Origin: Bacillota bacterium
Lineage (GTDB): Bacteria > Armatimonadota > HRBIN16
Assembly: GCA_023511455.1 (NCBI GenBank)
Contig: JAIMBJ010000004.1
Span: 124,001-188,000 of the forward strand
Direction of reading: 5' to 3'
DNA: 64,000 nucleotides
Made by a program: the position numbers and the translations under genes. The notes under the pieces were generated by a model, which saw only the letters and a list, made by a program, of their open reading frames with translations, was not told the DNA's origin and made no database searches. Positions 9,623-47,905 of the stretch are shown here, one piece after another (position 1 is the stretch's first letter; the number at the start of each line of letters is the position of its first letter).

Positions 9623-10525
9623 ATGTGCAAAGAGGAACTCGTTCCAACCCATTGCGGTTTTGTGGCGATTGTGGGCAAGCCGAATGTGGGCAAGTCCACG
9701 CTGTTGAACGTCATGCTGGGGGTGAAGGTGTCCGCCATCACATCGCGCCCACAGACCACACGGCGGGGTGTGCGCGGTATCTACACCGAAGGCAACCGCC
9801 AGGTGGTGTTTGTGGATACACCCGGCTGGCATCAGCCGAAGGATCGACTGGGAGAGTACATGATCGAGCAGATAGACGGCGCGCTCGAGGATATCGATCT
9901 CGTGCTGTGGGTGGTGGACCTGCGTCATCCCCCCACCCCTGAAGATGAAGACCTGGCGAGCCGATTACAGAAGGTGCAGGCGCCAGTGTGGATGGTAGGC
10001 AATAAAGTGGACGCCGCGAAGTATCCCGAACAGGCGATGCAGGCGTACAGTGCGCTGTTGCCGAATGCGCAGCGGCACATCATGCTTTCCGCGCTGAAAG
10101 ACCCCAAAGCGGTCTACCGCCTGCGCGAGGAGATATTGCTGGCGATGCCCGAATCGCCTTTCTATTATCCAGTGGACATTCGCTCCGACCAGTCGCGCCA
10201 GGACTGGGCAGCCGAGATTGTGCGCGAGCAGGCGATGAGCCTGTTGCGGGAGGAGATACCGTATACCATCGCCGTGCGCGTGACCGACTGGGAACAGCGT
10301 GAAAACGGGGTACAGTATATCCGTGCGGAGCTGATTGTGGAGCGTGAGAACCATAAATCCATCGTCATCGGCAAGGGAGGCAGGATGCTGAAGCAGATTG
10401 GGCAGGAGGCGCGTAAACAGCTGGAGCTGTTTTTGGGAAGCAAGGTGTATCTGGAACTGGTGGTGAAGGTGATGCCCGATTGGCGACGCAATCCCAAAGC
10501 ATTGCAGGAGCTGGGCTATGAGTAG
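9623..10525 (+). CDS. era: GTPase Era (30S ribosome assembly)
   Basis: 300 residues, normal for Era. GTPase motifs are GKPNVGKS (G1), a T-rich switch RPQTTRRGV (G2), DTPG (G3) and NKVD (G4). A C-terminal KH domain carries [21 protein letters not shown]. Era binds the 3' end of 16S rRNA and takes part in 30S maturation, acting at the inner membrane and ribosome. The stop overlaps the start of topA by 8 bases, indicating cotranscription and probably translational coupling. The ribosome binding site is weak (GAGGCAGGACGG). Confidence 0.97.
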
Positions 10526-12806
10526 GAAAAAGACAGGGTCCGCCAAACCGCTGATTATCGTGGAGTCGCCTGCGAAGACCAAAACGCTGAAAAACTTCCT
10601 GGGCGACGACTATCGGGTGGAAGCCTCGATGGGGCACGTGCGCGACCTGCCGGAGAAGGAGTTCGGCGTGGACCTGAGTAACGGCTTCACTCCCAAATAC
10701 GAAACGTTGCCCGAACGGCAGGATGTGCTGAAAAAACTGGCAGAGGCGGCGGCAAGTGCCCCCGAAGTATACCTGGCGTCCGACCCCGACCGTGAGGGCG
10801 AAGCCATCGCCTGGCACCTGAAGGAAGCGCTTCGCCTGCAAAACGCCCGACGCATCGAGTTTAACGAGATTACCCGGCAGGCGGTTCAGCAGGCACTGCA
10901 GCACCCGCGCGACATCGATATGAACCGCGTCAACGCACAGCAGGCACGGCGTATCTTAGACCGCATTGTGGGTTACAAGCTCAGCCCCCTGCTCTGGAAG
11001 AAAGCCAGCCGCAACACGCTGAGCGCGGGACGGGTGCAGTCGGTCGCGGTGCGGCTGGTGGTGGAGCGCGAGCGCGAAATCGAAGCCTTTGTGCCTGAAG
11101 AGTACTGGACCATCACCGCCCGCCTGACCCCCGACACCGAAGCGAACGCCTTCGACGCCACGCTGCGCCTGCGCGACGGCGAGAAGGTGGAGCTGCACAA
11201 CGAACAGGAAGCCAGCGCCGTGCTGCAGGAGCTGGAGGGAGCACAGTATGTGGTGCAGAAGATAAAGCGCACCGAGCGCAAGCGCAACCCGTCCCCGCCG
11301 TTCATCACCAGCACCCTGCAACAGGAGGCGGCGCGTAAACTGGGCTTCAGTGCGAAACGCACCATGCAGATTGCCCAGCAGCTGTATGAAGGCGTGGAGC
11401 TGGGTGCGCAGGGCTCCGTCGGATTGATTACCTACATGCGCACCGACTCCACCCGCGTCGCCGCCGAAGCGCAGCAGCAGGCACGCGAATACATCGGCAA
11501 AGAGTTCGGCGACCGCTATGTGCCCGAAAAGCCGCCTCAGTATCGCTCACGGCGGGGAGCGCAGGAGGCACACGAAGCCATCCGCCCCACCTCGGTAACG
11601 CGCACCCCCGAGTCGGTGAAAAGCTACCTGTCCAAAGACCAGTATGAGCTGTACCGCCTCATCTGGCAGCGTTTCATTGCCAGCCAGATGGCACCGGCGG
11701 TGCTGGATGTGGTGACGGTAGACATTCAGGCAGGAAGGTACACTTTCCGTGCCACCGGCTCCAGCGTCAAGTTTGACGGATTCATGCGCGTCTACGTCGA
11801 GGGCAAAGACAACGGCGAACTCAGCGACGAGGAGCGTCCCCCGCTACCGCCGATGCTGGAAGGCCAGGTGCTTACGTTGCTCGCGCTGCTGCCCGAACAG
11901 CATTTCACCGAGCCACCCCCTCGCTACACCGAAGCCACATTGGTGAAAGCGCTGGAAGAGAAGGGCATCGGCAGACCCAGCACCTATGCGACCATTCTCT
12001 CTACCATTGTGGAGCGCGGATACGTGGAGCTGAAAGAGAAGCGATTCTATCCCACCGCGCTGGGCATTGCCGTGACCGACTATCTGGTGAAGCACTTTCC
12101 CGATGTGATGGACGTGCAGTTCACCGCTTCCGTCGAGCAGCAGCTGGACGAGATTGAGGAAGGCAAGCAGGCGTGGACGGAGGTGCTGCGCGCCTTTTAT
12201 GAACCGTTCGCACAACGGCTCACGGAGACGGAAAGGAACGGTGAATTCGTGCGCATCGAGGCGAAGGAGACCGATTACACCTGTCCGACCTGCGGCGCGA
12301 AGATGCTGCTGCGCGAGGGGCGTTACGGCAAGTTTCTCGGTTGCTCGCGCTACCCGGAGTGCAAAACGATTGTCAACGTGACCCGCAGCGGCGAACCCGT
12401 CCCACCAGACAAGCCGTCCGACGAGGTCTGCGAGAAGTGCGGTTCGCCCATGGTTATCCGCTGGGGCAGGTACGGCGAATACCTCGCCTGCACCAACGAG
12501 CAGTGCAAGGCGCACCGACCGCTGGAGAAGAGCACGGGCATCACCTGCCCTGCCTGCCAGCAGGGACAGCTGGTAGAGCGACGCGCACGCAAAGGCAAGC
12601 TGCGTGGCAAGGTCTTCTACGGCTGCAACCGCTACCCTGCCTGCGACTTCACCTTGTGGGACAAGCCGGTGGACAGAACGTGCCCGAAGTGCGGCTCGCT
12701 ACTGGTGGAAAAGCGCACCGGTAAGCGATTGACCATCGCCTGCTCCAGCAAAGCCTGTGACTACCGCGAGGAGCCGTCGGCGGAGGCGCAGGCACTGGCG
12801 TCCTAG
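10518..12806 (+). CDS. topA: DNA topoisomerase I (type IA)
   Basis: 762 residues. The Toprim domain starts at [13 protein letters not shown] and holds the acidic motif [13 protein letters not shown]. The catalytic tyrosine lies in [12 protein letters not shown], and the type IA gate domains follow. The C-terminal about 170 residues hold four Cys4 zinc ribbons (CPTC...CSRYPEC, CEKC...CTNEQC, CPAC...CNRYPAC, CPKC...CSSKAC). It relaxes negative supercoils through a 5'-phosphotyrosine intermediate. It overlaps era by 8 bases and is followed after 14 bp by the RecQ-like gene. A topA-dprA neighbourhood is common in bacteria; here a helicase gene sits between them. Confidence 0.97.
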
Positions 12807-12820
12807 AGGAGTGGTATGCG

Positions 12821-14923
12821 TTGGATGACCTTTTCGAGCGTGCCCAGACGTTGTTGCGTCACGGGCTACAAGATGCGACTGCTACGTTCCGCGACGGGCA
12901 ATGGGAAGCGATAGAGTCGCTGGTACGTAACCGCCAGCGTTTGCTGCTGGTGCAACGCACCGGCTGGGGCAAAAGCATCGTCTACTTCATCGCGGCTCGA
13001 TTGCTCCGCGAGCAAAACGGTAACCACGGTGTATCACTGCTGATATCGCCGCTATTGTCACTGATGCGCAACCAGATGGACATGGCGCACCGCATGGGTA
13101 TCCGCGCGGAAACCATTCACTCTGCCAACACGGAGCGGTGGATCGAGGTCAAAAACCTTTTGTATCAAGACCAGATTGACGTTCTCTTAATTAGCCCAGA
13201 GCGCCTGGCGAATCAGGAGTTCGAGGCAGAGGTGCTTCAGCCCATTGCGTCGCGGATTCTGCTGTTCATTGTGGACGAAGCGCACTGCATCTCCGACTGG
13301 GGACACGACTTCCGCCCCGACTACCGGCGAATCACCCGCGTGCTGAAACTACTGCCGAGAAACGTGCCCGTTCTGGCCACTACGGCTACCGCGAATGACC
13401 GCGTTGTTGCCGACATCAAACAACAGCTGGGCGACGACCTTCGTATCAATCGAGGAGCACTGGCACGGCGTAGCCTGCGGCTGCAAAACGTGATACTGCC
13501 CTCGCAAGCGGAACGACTGGCTTGGCTCGCGGCACACTTGTCCGAACTGCCTGGCAGCGGCGTCATCTACACGCTGACCGTCGCTGATGCAGAGCGCGTC
13601 GCCCTATGGCTCCAGCACAAAGGGTGGCAGGTGTATCCGTATCATGCCGACATTGAAAACTCGGAACGCGAAAGGCGAGAGCGACTGCTGCTGCACAACC
13701 AAGTCAAAGCGCTTGTAGCCACTGTCGCTTTGGGCATGGGATTTGACAAACCCGACTTAGGCTTCGTGGTGCACTTTCAGAGGCCTGGGTCGGTGGTGCA
13801 TTATTACCAGCAAATCGGCAGAGCAGGCAGGTCTCTGGAAAATGCACTGGTCATCCTTTTGGGTGGCGAAGAAGACGATGAGATTGTGGATTACTTCATC
13901 CGTACCGCTCTCCCCCCGCAAGCGCACACCGAAGCAGTACTACACGCATTAAGCCACAGCCCAAACGGGCTAACTCTCGTTGAGCTGGAGCGCAAGGTCA
14001 ATCTCTCACGACAACAACTGGACAAGGTGCTTCGCCTACTGCTATCAGAGACCCCTGCTCCACTGTTTTACTTGGGTCGACGCTACCAATTAGCCCCTGT
14101 GGCATACAGGATGGACCATGAACGTATTGCGAGGCTAACCGCCCTGCGTCGCGCCGAACAAGAGCAGATGCGGCAGTATATGCAAAGCCAGCAGTGCCTG
14201 ATGCAGTTCCTGCAGATAGCGCTGGATGACCCCTATGCAGAACCCTGTGGCCGATGCGCTGTCTGCGTTGGTAGCGACATAATCGCGCCAGAGGTAGAGG
14301 ACTCTTTGGTGCGAGAAGCCATACTCTTCTTACGCCGTGCCGATGTTCCAATACCGCCCCGAAAGATGTGGCCGAGTAAGGAAGGACTGATGATTACCGG
14401 CGGGCAGGGAAAGATTCCCGAGCTGCTTCAAGCGGAAGAAGGACGCGCACTATGCCTGTGGGGTGATGCTGGCTGGGGGAGTTTGGTGCGTAAGGGCAAG
14501 TATCAGGACGGTTTTTACGACGATGACCTGGTAAAGGGGATGGAGGAGATGATACACCGTTGGCAACCCCAACCTGCGCCCCGCTGGATTACCTGTGTGC
14601 CTTCCCTGCGCCATCCCAGCCTGGTGCCCGACTTCGCCCAAAGGTTAGCACAGCGGCTCCAGTTGCCCTTTGTGCCGTGTGTGAAAAAAGTGCGCGAAAC
14701 CAAGCCGCAAAAGGAGATGCAAAACAGTTTCCATCAGGTGCGCAACCTGGATGGAGCGTTTGCCATTGAGCGGTGGTCCGGCATCGCAGAGCCTGTTTTT
14801 CTGGTAGACGATGTGGTAGACTCAGGATGGACGCTCACCGTAGTGGCTTTCCTGCTACGAAGGGCAGGAAGCGGTGCCGTCTTTCCGATTGCACTTGCCA
14901 AACAGGTTCTGCGTGGGGAGTAA
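12821..14923 (+). CDS. RecQ-family helicase fused to a C-terminal ComF-like phosphoribosyltransferase domain
   Basis: A 700-residue two-part protein. The RecQ core has Walker A GWGKS at 48-52, DEAH at 152-155, the ATTATA motif and the QIGRAGR motif VI, followed by a zinc site (Cys459, Cys476, Cys479, Cys482). There is no HRDC domain. From about residue 540 the sequence follows a ComF-type PRTase: WITCVPSLRHPSL, FAQRLAQRLQLPF, QVRNLDGAFAI and the PRPP-loop motif VFLVDDVVDSGWTL at 659-672. The start is TTG at 12821, with AGAGGAG about 10 nt upstream. The next gene begins 3 nt after the stop and is DprA-like. Helicase, PRTase and DprA echo ComFA/ComFC/DprA of competence and the PRTase-DprA pair of ShosTA defence. 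Confidence 0.85.
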   Translation: MDDLFERAQTLLRHGLQDATATFRDGQWEAIESLVRNRQRLLLVQRTGWGKSIVYFIAARLLREQNGNHGVSLLISPLLSLMRNQMDMAHRMGIRAETIHSANTERWIEVKNLLYQDQIDVLLISPERLANQEFEAEVLQPIASRILLFIVDEAHCISDWGHDFRPDYRRITRVLKLLPRNVPVLATTATANDRVVADIKQQLGDDLRINRGALARRSLRLQNVILPSQAERLAWLAAHLSELPGSGVIYTLTVADAERVALWLQHKGWQVYPYHADIENSERERRERLLLHNQVKALVATVALGMGFDKPDLGFVVHFQRPGSVVHYYQQIGRAGRSLENALVILLGGEEDDEIVDYFIRTALPPQAHTEAVLHALSHSPNGLTLVELERKVNLSRQQLDKVLRLLLSETPAPLFYLGRRYQLAPVAYRMDHERIARLTALRRAEQEQMRQYMQSQQCLMQFLQIALDDPYAEPCGRCAVCVGSDIIAPEVEDSLVREAILFLRRADVPIPPRKMWPSKEGLMITGGQGKIPELLQAEEGRALCLWGDAGWGSLVRKGKYQDGFYDDDLVKGMEEMIHRWQPQPAPRWITCVPSLRHPSLVPDFAQRLAQRLQLPFVPCVKKVRETKPQKEMQNSFHQVRNLDGAFAIERWSGIAEPVFLVDDVVDSGWTLTVVAFLLRRAGSGAVFPIALAKQVLRGE

Positions 14924-14926
14924 AGT

Positions 14927-15946
14927 ATGCCGTCTTTGCAACCAAGCACCGAGGTGGCTTGTCTGCTGTGTGCACACACGGGCAATGAGCCGGCTGCGCC
15001 GCTGGCGCAGAAAGAATACGTTCAGCTGCGACAGTGGCTGCGGGAACGTCACCATCCGATAGAGGCTCTGCTCGAACCCGGTGTCTCTTCTCTGCTGTGC
15101 GAGATCGCAGAGTCAACCTCACTGGACGCAGAAAGGTTAGCGGCTCTTCTGCGCCGCGGCAGCCAGATTGCGCTGTGGTTGGAGCGTTGGACAAACGCGG
15201 GGATGTGGATTGCCTCATGGGAAGACGTCGAGTATCCCCCGATACTGCGCCAGAAGCTGGGAGACGCCTCCCCTGTCTTGTTACATGGTTTCGGGAACCC
15301 GCAGCTCTTACATACAAGAGGACTCGCCATTGTGGGTTCACGACACACCAGTGAGACGTTACTACAGCAGGCATATGCCATCGCCAGCCGCTGCGCCAGC
15401 CACCGCGAGAACGTCATCTCCGGAGGGGCGCGGGGCGTGGACTCGTTCGCGATGAAGGGCGCACTGGAAGAGGGCGGCACCTGCGTAGGGGTGTTGGCGG
15501 CCGACCTTGCCCGAACCGCCACGTCGCACACACTTCGAGATTACCTGCTCACAGATAAACTCTGTTTAATTTCGCCCTATCATCCGGTGGCCGGTTTCAC
15601 GGCGGGAAACGCCATGGGACGCAACAAGATTATCTACGCGCTTGCCGAGTTTGCGCTCGTTATCGCCAGCGACATGGGCAAGGGAGGCACCTGGGCTGGC
15701 GCGTTGGAGAACCTTCGCGCCGGATGGACGCCGATTTTCGTCTACACTGGTAACGATGCTCCGGAAGGCAATATGGCGCTCCGCGACGCGGGAGCTTATC
15801 CCTTTACCCTGCCAGAAGATGTACAGATTTCCGTGTTGTCGCACTTGCGCCACTCCATTGCCGGCACGTCTGCACCGCCGTCTTCGCGTCCCCGCAAACG
15901 CAAATCGACGGTATCACAACCTGCATTGCCTCTGGATACCGGGTGA
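14927..15946 (+). CDS. Divergent DprA/Smf-like protein paired with the RecQ-PRTase protein
   Basis: 339 residues. After an N-terminal helical region (about 1-95), a DprA Rossmann fold is recognisable: LAIVGSRHTS at about 134-143, ISGGARGVDSFAMKGAL (nucleotide-binding loop), a region matching the RNRII strand as GRNKIIYALAEFALVIAS, and GKGGTWAGALENLRAGW where canonical DprA has SGSLxTAxxA. DprA binds ssDNA and loads RecA; LOG/DprA-like relatives also act as nucleotide-linked immunity proteins. The altered second loop separates this protein from housekeeping DprA. The C-terminus is basic and Pro/Ser-rich instead of a clear winged helix. It starts 3 nt after the RecQ-PRTase stop, so the two are surely cotranscribed. 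Confidence 0.8.
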   Translation: MPSLQPSTEVACLLCAHTGNEPAAPLAQKEYVQLRQWLRERHHPIEALLEPGVSSLLCEIAESTSLDAERLAALLRRGSQIALWLERWTNAGMWIASWEDVEYPPILRQKLGDASPVLLHGFGNPQLLHTRGLAIVGSRHTSETLLQQAYAIASRCASHRENVISGGARGVDSFAMKGALEEGGTCVGVLAADLARTATSHTLRDYLLTDKLCLISPYHPVAGFTAGNAMGRNKIIYALAEFALVIASDMGKGGTWAGALENLRAGWTPIFVYTGNDAPEGNMALRDAGAYPFTLPEDVQISVLSHLRHSIAGTSAPPSSRPRKRKSTVSQPALPLDTG

Positions 15947-15960
15947 CCATACCAGCAAAC

Positions 15961-16017
15961 GTTTTCGCCTCCCACCTGTAATGCGAAAACGCCCTTGCGG
16001 GCACGCCCGCAAGGGCG
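15961..16017 (+). terminator. Double hairpin after the dprA-like gene
   Basis: Two consecutive inverted repeats. The first has arms GTTTTCGC (15961-15968) and GCGAAAAC (15983-15990). The second is a perfect 13-bp stem CGCCCTTGCGGGC (15990-16002) with its complement at 16005-16017 and a formal two-base loop. It sits between the end of the dprA-like gene and the convergent end of the PEP-CTERM gene. There is no U tract, so it may be a bidirectional terminator or a transcript-stabilising structure. Confidence 0.55.
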
Positions 16018-16048: not shown

Positions 16049-16834
16049 CTACTTGCGCCGGCGAAGCAGCACCATTGCTGGAGCCGCGAAACCGCTCAGC
16101 CACAGCAACATCGTGCCCGGCTCGGGTACTACGTTCAGCTGAAGTATTTTGTAGTTCCAGTCGCTGTCTCCTTCGCACTTCCAGCGGATGTAACCAATCG
16201 CGTGGGTCTGGTATCGCAACACCAGAGCAGCCAGCGCGTCCACGTCAGCCTGATTTACCTCATTGTAGGGGTTTCCATCCGTGCTGAGGGGGGCCGCTAA
16301 ATCGTCGTATGCCCACCAGGCAAAGCCAAAGGTGCCGATCACACCATCCGGGTTATTGTCGCCATCCTTGTCGTACTCAATCCAGCTGCCTGGTTGTATC
16401 CAGCCGTTCGTCGGGATGCCCCCCACCAGAACAGCCTTTACCAGGTCATTCGCTTCCCAATCATAAACATAGTCAACACCCTCCCAGTCCACCATCCAGT
16501 TGACCTGGAAGTTACAACTCTGGAGCTGGGCAATGGTTTTGCCGGGCACCCAGTAAATCCAGTGAAGCCGTTTGCCAAGGTCCCCGGTGCTGTAGACAAT
16601 CATCTCTTTGGGCTCGTAGTAGTTCGTGCCCGGGTGTGCGCCGCTACGCATGTTCACGAAGGTGCCCGCTGCTGCGTCCGCCTTCGCAGCCGTCCACCAG
16701 GGTCCCCAAAGGGGTGACCCTTATACGTTTGGGGCGGTATCGGCATACAGGGCAGGGGTTATCGTGCCCGCAGAGGCAAAACCGACCAGCGTGAACAGCG
16801 CCAGCACTGTTACCCACAACGACCGAACGCGCAT
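16049..16834 (-). pseudogene. PEP-CTERM surface protein gene with a premature TAA
   Basis: The ATG at 16834 (Shine-Dalgarno GGGAGGAGG) opens a signal peptide, RSLWVTVLALFTLVGFASAG. Codon 38 is TAA (16721-16723), and the same frame then continues open for another 223 residues (GSPLWGPWWTAAKADAAAG...). It ends in a canonical PEP-CTERM tail: VVPEPGTMLL, a transmembrane stretch and RRRK. PEP-CTERM proteins are sorted by exosortase to the cell surface or exopolysaccharide. Frame and protein character are preserved on both sides, so a single nonsense change (from TAC or TAT) is the simplest explanation. A consensus sigma-54 promoter lies upstream. Confidence 0.7.
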
Positions 16835-16886
16835 CGTACTTACCTCCTCCCAGGTTTGAGATTTAGATATCCGACCCATTATAAAC

Positions 16887-16902
16887 GCAAGATTCGTGCC
16901 AA
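16887..16902 (-). promoter_or_regulatory. Sigma-54 (RpoN) -24/-12 promoter for the PEP-CTERM gene
   Basis: Minus strand TTGGCACGAATCTTGC: the -24 GG and -12 GC are separated by exactly 10 bases, matching the sigma-54 consensus YTGGCACGN4TTGCW at nearly every position. The predicted transcription start is near 16875, about 40 bases before the ATG at 16834. PEP-CTERM systems are known to be linked to the PrsK/PrsR sensor and sigma-54 activator. Confidence 0.7.
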
Positions 16903-17000
16903 AACGCAGGTTTCATCCCCGTACAATTACTGGGTTTTCAAAAATTTGGTCTCTCAGGCGGTTTATAGAGGCGTTTATCAAGAATAAATGATGCGTACTG

Positions 17001-46064: not shown

Positions 46065-46141
46065 GCAGGTGTCGCCGACGCCAGACAGGGACCCGGATGT
46101 CCGCCGGCACGATACTGCCGTGGCAGGGGAAGGAGCGCACA

Positions 46142-47905
46142 GTGACGCTCGGCACTGTTTTGGGAAAGTATCGTATCCTTCGCGAATTCGGCGGGGGCGG
46201 GATGGCATGTGTCTATGAGGCGGAGGACCAGAGCATTGGAAGGAAGGTGGCGCTGAAGGTTCTCATAGTGCCTCCTGCTGTACCTGAATCCGACAAATCC
46301 CTCCTTATCGAACGGTTCCAGCAAGAAGCGCGTGCCGCAGGTACCCTCTCCCATTCCAACGTGGTTACCCTCTATGAAGTCGGCGAGACAGACGGCGTGC
46401 ACTATATCGCGATGGAGCTGCTCGCAGGTACCACCGTGCGCGAACTGCTGCGTGCGCGGGGCAAGATACCTGTGGATGAGGCACTGAACATCCTGCTGCA
46501 AGTAGCCCGCGCGCTGGATTACGCCCACAGGCAGGGAGTGATTCATCGCGACGTCAAACCGGACAACATCGTGGTGACCGAAGAGGGAGTGGTGAAACTC
46601 ACCGACTTCGGAATCGCACGCGCGGCGAACGACCTGCTGCGCACACAAAAGGGGATCCTCGTTGGCTCACCCGCTTACATGTCCCCAGAGCAGATTCTGG
46701 GTGAACCTGTAGATTACCGTACAGACATCTACTCGCTGGGCGTGACTGCTTACGAGATGCTGACAGGGCGCAAACCGTTCGATGCCCCTGCCGTCACCGC
46801 GATGATGCATCGCATCGTTTACGACGAGCCCGACGCCGCTCCCGAACTACCCCGCTCCGCTGAGGCAGCCCTGCGCCATGCGCTGGCAAAAAAGCCCGAA
46901 GAGCGACCCTCTTCCGCTGTTGCCTTTGTGGAAGAACTCAGTGCCGCTTACTACGGCACCGCGGTGGTTTCACCGGAAGCGCGGATTGTGGCATCCTCCC
47001 ATCCTTTGCATCGTGACAAGGAGAAAGCACGGATGAGCCCTTATTCTTCATTCTCATCGTCGCCCTCGCGGCGCCCCTACTGGATAGCTGGAGAGCTGGC
47101 TGTGGTGCTGCTGGTTGCAGGTATCCTTATGTGGTATTCGCTGTCGCCGTCGAAAGAACAGTTTGGCGTGCGAATCGTGGACGTGGGCGAAACGGCAACA
47201 TCTACACCTGCCGTGGCCACCAATTATGTGCTGAACGACTTCGAGTTGAACCCCGGCTCGTGGCAGGCGGAAAACAAGGGCCTGAGGCTGGAACGAGTTC
47301 GCGGCGGCGCGAGTCAGGCGGCATACTGGCTGAAGGTCAGCGGGGTGCAACTAGCTGCGGGTGAACATGCCGCCATTTCGTGCCTGCCCGAAACGCGCGA
47401 TTGGTCGCGATTCGGGGGGATTATTTCGCTGGATGTGCTGGTACCCGGCACCGCGCCACCCGACCTGCGCCTGACGCTGGAAGTGGAAGACTCCACTGGA
47501 GGCTTGCAGGTGATGCCTGGAGAAGGGGTGCTGCTCACTCCGGGCAGGTGGGCAGCGATGACATGGAACGCTGGCGCTGTCGCCCGCGATGTGGCGCGCC
47601 TGCGGGTGAAGCTGCTGTGTGGGCAAACTCCCTACAGGGGCTATTTCGGTATCGACCACGTGCGGGCACAGGGCGCGGCAACAAGCCCTGCCGCGTTGCG
47701 TTACAAAGTGCGTATTGGACCGTTTACAGACCAGGTCTCGCTGGAACGGGAAACCGCGCGGTTGAAATCGCTGGGGAAGTCGCCATTTGTGGTGCGCGAG
47801 GGCGACAAGCGTTACCTGCAGGTAGGAGCATTCACCACTATCGAATCCGCCCGACGCGAGCTGGAGGCTCTGGTTGCAGAGGGCTACACGGAGATTCGTC
47901 AGTAG
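46142..47905 (+). CDS. Transmembrane Ser/Thr protein kinase (Hanks type) with C-terminal SPOR domain
   Basis: About 587 residues. The kinase domain carries FGGGGMACVYEA (Gly loop), VALKVL, HRDVKPDNIV, DFGIAR and GSPAYMSPEQ, so it is catalytically complete. A single transmembrane helix follows at about 310-330 (WIAGELAVVLLVAGILMWY). The external part has an about 170-residue beta-sandwich-like domain (FELNPGSWQAENKGL...DHVRAQG) and a terminal SPOR repeat (YKVRIGPFTDQVSLERETARLKSLG, YLQVGAFTTIESARRELEAL). SPOR domains bind denuded septal peptidoglycan, so the kinase may sense wall state. GTG 46142 (GGAAGGAG at 6 nt) was chosen over ATG 46097. Confidence 0.9.
   Translation: MTLGTVLGKYRILREFGGGGMACVYEAEDQSIGRKVALKVLIVPPAVPESDKSLLIERFQQEARAAGTLSHSNVVTLYEVGETDGVHYIAMELLAGTTVRELLRARGKIPVDEALNILLQVARALDYAHRQGVIHRDVKPDNIVVTEEGVVKLTDFGIARAANDLLRTQKGILVGSPAYMSPEQILGEPVDYRTDIYSLGVTAYEMLTGRKPFDAPAVTAMMHRIVYDEPDAAPELPRSAEAALRHALAKKPEERPSSAVAFVEELSAAYYGTAVVSPEARIVASSHPLHRDKEKARMSPYSSFSSSPSRRPYWIAGELAVVLLVAGILMWYSLSPSKEQFGVRIVDVGETATSTPAVATNYVLNDFELNPGSWQAENKGLRLERVRGGASQAAYWLKVSGVQLAAGEHAAISCLPETRDWSRFGGIISLDVLVPGTAPPDLRLTLEVEDSTGGLQVMPGEGVLLTPGRWAAMTWNAGAVARDVARLRVKLLCGQTPYRGYFGIDHVRAQGAATSPAALRYKVRIGPFTDQVSLERETARLKSLGKSPFVVREGDKRYLQVGAFTTIESARRELEALVAEGYTEIRQ

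Follow-up and report, generated by a model that had tools for sequence, protein, structure and literature searches.

The window, the whole stretch of 64,000 nt that was analysed, contains two adjacent forward-strand open reading frames that are separated by 3 nt according to the ORF listing (Table 1). The first protein was matched by the PADLOC model PsyrT over residues 6-696 of 700 (E = 1.5e-286). The second was matched by the model PsyrA (E = 5.5e-104); the alignment spans model positions 3-302 out of 398 and leaves out the C-terminus. Compared with the homologues of E. coli Nissle, RqlH showed 49.6% identity over residues 8-698 and RqlI 40.6% identity. The two Nissle proteins, encoded between gntU and yhgN, were matched by the same two PADLOC models. 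On the basis of the PADLOC and Nissle matches, PsyrTA and RqlHI are taken as one family. Judged by sequence, the pair in the window is PsyrTA (= RqlHI), a known widespread toxin–antitoxin family, and this copy is an ordinary member of an already known system. An earlier note on this DNA had proposed a toxin/guardian module; that was the right kind of explanation, but the pair had already been named RqlHI/PsyrTA, with models and experiments available.

Table 1. Positions of genes, motifs and signals of the PsyrTA locus in the window
Feature	Position	Strand	Basis or remark
topA, upstream gene	10518..12806	+	directly upstream of the pair
Shine-Dalgarno-like AGAGGAG, overlapping the topA end	12805..12811	+	inferred from sequence
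rqlH/psyrT, RecQ-like helicase with C-terminal PRTase, 700 aa	12821..14923	+	PADLOC PsyrT
Walker A, TGWGKS, residues 47-52	12959..12976	+	invariant in 34 relatives
DEAH box, residues 152-155	13274..13285	+	across 34 relatives, no change in D, E or H and hardly any in A
RecQ-type zinc-binding cysteines, CGRCAVC, residues 476-482, with C459	14246..14266	+	motif position
C-terminal PRTase domain, about residues 540-700	14438..14920	+	PsyrT, Pribosyltran and PDB profile matches
PRPP-binding loop, DDVVDSGWT, residues 663-671	14807..14833	+	D663, W670 and T671 invariant in 34 relatives
rqlI/psyrA, DprA-like (SLOG Rossmann) putative antitoxin, 339 aa	14927..15946	+	PADLOC PsyrA
PsyrA signature, KGGTWAGALENL, residues 252-263	15680..15715	+	G253, G254, T255, G258, A259 and E261 invariant
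12-bp stem-loop after the operon, no T tract	15990..16017	+	-28.6 kcal/mol, z = -3.0

The reading frame of rqlH begins with TTG, 14 nt after the topA stop. Because of the 8-nt overlap of era and topA, the short gaps behind topA and rqlH (14 and 3 nt) and the AGAGGAG at the end of topA, the genes era-topA-rqlH-rqlI look like one transcription unit, and they probably form a single operon. No promoter-like site was found on the forward strand between these four genes. The hairpin behind rqlI, taken for a terminator in the earlier note, is indeed a strong stem-loop but, having no T tract, does not qualify as an intrinsic terminator of the standard kind. The window genes that were scanned gave no sign of a defence island, and the pair follows the housekeeping neighbours era-topA. 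At positions 46097-47905 the window also encodes a 602-aa protein that was matched by PADLOC PD-T4-6 (1.8e-87) and by other kinase models; this is probably an ordinary Ser/Thr kinase.

When the domains of RqlH were analysed with Pfam, DEAD/DEAH (6.5e-24) and Helicase_C (1.1e-14) were found, followed at the C-terminus by Pribosyltran (4.9e-5, just under the gathering score) and accompanied by a weak RecQ_Zn_bind match (0.0089, below cut-off). Together with the PsyrT match, these results agree with the earlier description of a RecQ core and a C-terminal PRTase in one protein. The score of RqlH with the canonical RecQ model TIGR01389 was 294.6 bits, under the curated cut-off of 640.2, and that with the broader subfamily recQ_fam was 244.8 bits, above the cut-off of 219.8. 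No other RecQ-family helicase above cut-off was found in the source genome. The PRTase region alone was matched by PsyrT with 1.1e-65, and a profile built from this region hit PDB entries of PRPP synthetases and PRTases at the PRPP loop (best 1.4e-6), whereas the comF model gave 1.4e-5, below its cut-off. The profile check that had been suggested for about residues 540-700 thus came out in favour of a PRTase.

Residues K49, D148 and DIVD663 of E. coli RqlH, which were mutated in PMC4670107 and are numbered as in that paper, 1 lower than in the annotated Nissle RqlH, have K51, D152 and DVVD664-667 as their counterparts in the window protein; all are kept. In E. coli, changing DIVD663 abolished toxicity (PMC4670107). 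The AlphaFold single-chain model of RqlH had a mean pLDDT of 91.8 and its best PDB match was the RecQ core 1oyw; the Foldseek matches listed for the full-length model, queried as one piece, were RecQ helicases only.

The gene following rqlH was confirmed as DprA-like by Pfam DprA (PF02481, 9.9e-34). Its product scored 346 bits with PsyrA and 75 bits with ShosA (E = 1.5e-21 for the latter), and 89.8 bits with canonical DprA (TIGR00732), under the curated cut-off of 191. A canonical dprA is present on another contig of the source genome (G000:C17, 266.6 bits). The sequence GKGGTWAGALE, regarded earlier as an altered active loop, is the family signature: GGTxxGAxE was invariant across the 30 PsyrA proteins compared, so this loop is normal for the family. 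The single-chain AlphaFold model of RqlI (mean pLDDT 92.5) found S. pneumoniae DprA (3uqz) and ShosA (8zva) as its closest PDB folds. RqlI lacks the C-terminal HTH of E. coli RqlI and canonical DprA, and judged by length 22 of 69 relatives with an adjacent partner are similarly short. The HTH of E. coli RqlI is dispensable for neutralisation, and this part is accessory rather than defining for PsyrTA/RqlHI. A short antitoxin without the HTH could suit structural work.

Conservation of the gene pair was studied in two samples. In GTDB the partner was located directly downstream in 71 of the 77 testable loci from many phyla, with six loci lacking it; these loci are the best 80 of at least 592, not a random choice, minus three at contig ends. 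In the phylum, the RqlH match extended to the end of the PRTase in 43 genomes; in four of these the locus lay at a contig end, and PsyrA was adjacent in 37 of the 39 testable genomes and missing in two. That a helicase gene and a DprA paralogue are neighbours merely by accident, for which proximity alone would speak, is refuted by this linkage, and we regard it as extremely improbable. Altogether, the PRTase segment matches PRTase profiles, a canonical dprA lies elsewhere and the linkage is conserved, and none of the three opposite outcomes, named in the earlier note as fatal to its proposal, came true. In one locus (L045, genome G259) the rqlH frame is interrupted between its helicase and PRTase parts, with the frame of the DprA-like gene still open, which may reflect decay or a sequencing error. 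RqlH homologues of a Halanaeroarchaeum plasmid (L070) and of Halorubrum (L151) had no PsyrA-like gene detected adjacent to them.

Relatives of the pair were found in various genomic contexts. On a conjugative E. coli plasmid (L067) the pair is nested in a type I R-M operon in the order hsdM-hsdS-[pair]-hsdR, and on an Acinetobacter plasmid (L071) it lies within a BREX operon between pglX and DUF262/pglZ; another relative is located on a Nostoc plasmid. The 77 nearest neighbours included three HsdR, three HsdS, two to three HsdM and one BrxL, so that about one tenth were restriction or BREX genes, a fraction without a matched control. In a member of the Blastocatellia (L105) the pair is likewise found directly behind topA, with a DprA-like ORF further upstream, and in L192 a divergent topA adjoins the pair.

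Helicase, PRTase and DprA act together in natural transformation (ComFA/ComFC and DprA), and the pair might accordingly be read as a fused counterpart of these proteins in competence or ssDNA uptake. The same three functions are combined, and the source genome has ComEC and a separate ComF-like PRTase ORF (C59), so DNA uptake may occur. However, because dprA, ComEC and the ComF-like gene already exist separately, a competence fusion is unlikely; in addition, ComF is a much poorer match to the PRTase than PsyrT, and relatives reside on plasmids and in restriction operons. Altogether we give this explanation little credit. The pair may alternatively be a dedicated ssDNA-processing module.

Within the genus, the pair was present in six of ten members, each time directly behind topA, and absent in four, in which topA was present; for G186, one of these six, rqlI was not seen, as its contig breaks off within the pair. 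The nearest relative (G185, locus L057), whose TopA is 96% identical, lacks the pair and has a clean empty site relative to window positions 12807-15973. There the topA stop is followed within about 20 nt by the stem-loop that the window has behind rqlI, and the genes downstream of the site are 91.7% identical to the window over 2,721 nt. The genome of this relative is 77% complete, and the empty site itself is fully read. Further downstream, it joins window position 16137 to 16986; the missing stretch of about 16138-16985 comprises most of a reverse-strand PEP-CTERM-like gene (16049-16657) and a stretch beyond. Another species without the pair (G179) has a TopA 96% identical to that of pair-carrying G187. 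The window copy is of interest mainly because a close relative has the same site without the pair, and the genus lends itself to a natural comparison between closely related carriers and non-carriers at a constant position.

Among the six species with the pair, RqlH identity tracked TopA identity (r = 0.95, 15 non-independent species pairs). Because RqlH divergence follows that of TopA, vertical descent with repeated loss fits best and is the simplest reading within the genus; gain is less likely. A mobile or prophage origin of the window copy was considered and is unsupported, as every pair in the genus sits next to topA and RqlH diverges in step with TopA. No full-length match was found in annotated phage records, and the viral contig set yielded only two.

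These data also bear on a role in genome maintenance, the model put forward by Russell & Mulvey, in which RqlH would be the RecQ-type repair helicase of the cell, the PRTase would make or remove a nucleotide modification and RqlI would complete the reaction, toxicity arising only when the components are unbalanced. A repair role is possible, since the genome yielded no RecQ-family helicase besides RqlH. The operon shared with era and topA and the common divergence of RqlH and TopA are in line with such a role, as is the finding that PsyrTA of E. coli NILS69, when deleted and when expressed, gave no detectable phage protection, expression slowing growth (PMC12409345). However, the pair was lost or is absent in four of the ten genus members and no replacement RecQ appeared in the PsyrT scan; moreover, relatives are carried by plasmids and nested in operons for restriction or BREX. 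We consider genome maintenance the less likely reading, though a more serious contender than competence.

Instead, we favour as the fairly probable explanation that the pair is a PsyrTA toxin–antitoxin module in which the DprA-like partner restrains a helicase-tethered PRTase whose release would be genotoxic. What the present data document for PsyrTA is family identity, intact key residues, folds, gene linkage and patchy presence. Function has been studied in E. coli, where RqlH toxicity requires the PRTase domain and the PRPP pocket, the PRTase domain alone being insufficient, and where helicase mutants showed worse toxicity (PMC4670107). RqlI, encoded in one operon with rqlH, rescued this toxicity, and its co-immunoprecipitation was lost once the PRTase domain of RqlH was removed (PMC4670107). 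As helicase mutants are worse and RqlI rescues, both the helicase and RqlI restrain toxicity in E. coli. By analogy, we infer that the window copy acts likewise, with a toxic PRTase restrained by RqlI. The RecQ part would be a 3'-5' helicase carrying the PRPP-binding PRTase domain to DNA, and RqlI would bind this domain and keep it restrained. If RqlI were lost or drawn away, most plausibly to ssDNA of an invading phage or to damaged forks, the unchecked PRTase would act on DNA or nucleotides and provoke genotoxic stress, so that the outcome would be an abortive-infection or toxin–antitoxin module. ssDNA or phage would be the trigger of RqlHI, and an anti-phage function of the window pair is plausible. 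The relatives nested in R-M and BREX operons or carried by plasmids speak for defence; the NILS69 result and the housekeeping surroundings of the window copy speak against it. The toxin–antitoxin explanation is also weakened by the parallel divergence of RqlH and TopA, as in vertical inheritance, and by the missing HTH of RqlI, dispensable though this part is in E. coli.

In addition to RqlH, ten genomes of the phylum (L046, L047, L048, L172-L178) encode a canonical-type RecQ with a C-terminal ComF/ShosT-like PRTase. These RecQ proteins have RQC and zinc domains, of three examined with Pfam two contained HTH_40, and their PRTase motifs are of the DDF/DDL-DSG type. A DprA-like gene is located nearby in nine of the ten loci, in L172 cut by the contig end and in L173 about 870 nt away; in both cases scanned it matched ShosA better than PsyrA. 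A quick unrooted tree, restricted to the helicase cores, gathered RqlH in a single group (SH-aLRT 100), separate from a mixture of these fusions and plain RecQs. This suggests, at the level of the helicase cores, that the second architecture arose by a separate joining. RecQ, PRTase and DprA-like protein may then have been joined at least twice, and the helicase-tethered PRTase under DprA control may be a recurrent design, a proposal that we make tentatively and hold at somewhat less than even chances. If confirmed, the second architecture would help to tell essential from dispensable parts of the design. Searching the phylum for the ShosT family mainly brought up free-standing ORFs with a length of about 200-280 aa; these are presumably ComF, and the search says little on ShosT itself.

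Comparison with known systems places the pair as follows. Unlike the fusion in the window, ComFA/ComFC and DprA are separate proteins with a helicase of another family. ShosTA likewise combines a PRTase toxin with a DprA-like antitoxin, and the RqlI model resembles ShosA 8zva; however, ShosTA has no helicase, whereas in the window the PRTase is fused to one and matches ShosT with 0.004 only. The link to ShosTA made earlier therefore holds for kinship, but as the identity of the pair ShosTA was rejected on scores (ShosT 0.004; ShosA 75 vs PsyrA 346 bits). In the list given in PMC9122126, the psyrTA toxin–antitoxin (Sberro 2013) stands beside ShosTA among systems with DprA-homologue antitoxins. 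RqlH of Mycobacterium smegmatis (Ordonez 2012), as cited in PMC5512222, represents a clade of RecQ-like helicases with a PRTase domain; that organism has no RqlI according to PMC4670107. The PsyrTA models of PADLOC were matched over nearly the full toxin and the antitoxin core. With the RqlH-RqlI pair of E. coli F11, studied by Russell & Mulvey 2015 (PMC4670107), the window pair shares domain order, gene order, operon and the conserved key residues, but its RqlI ends before the C-terminal HTH and its genomic context is topA, not gntU/yhgN.
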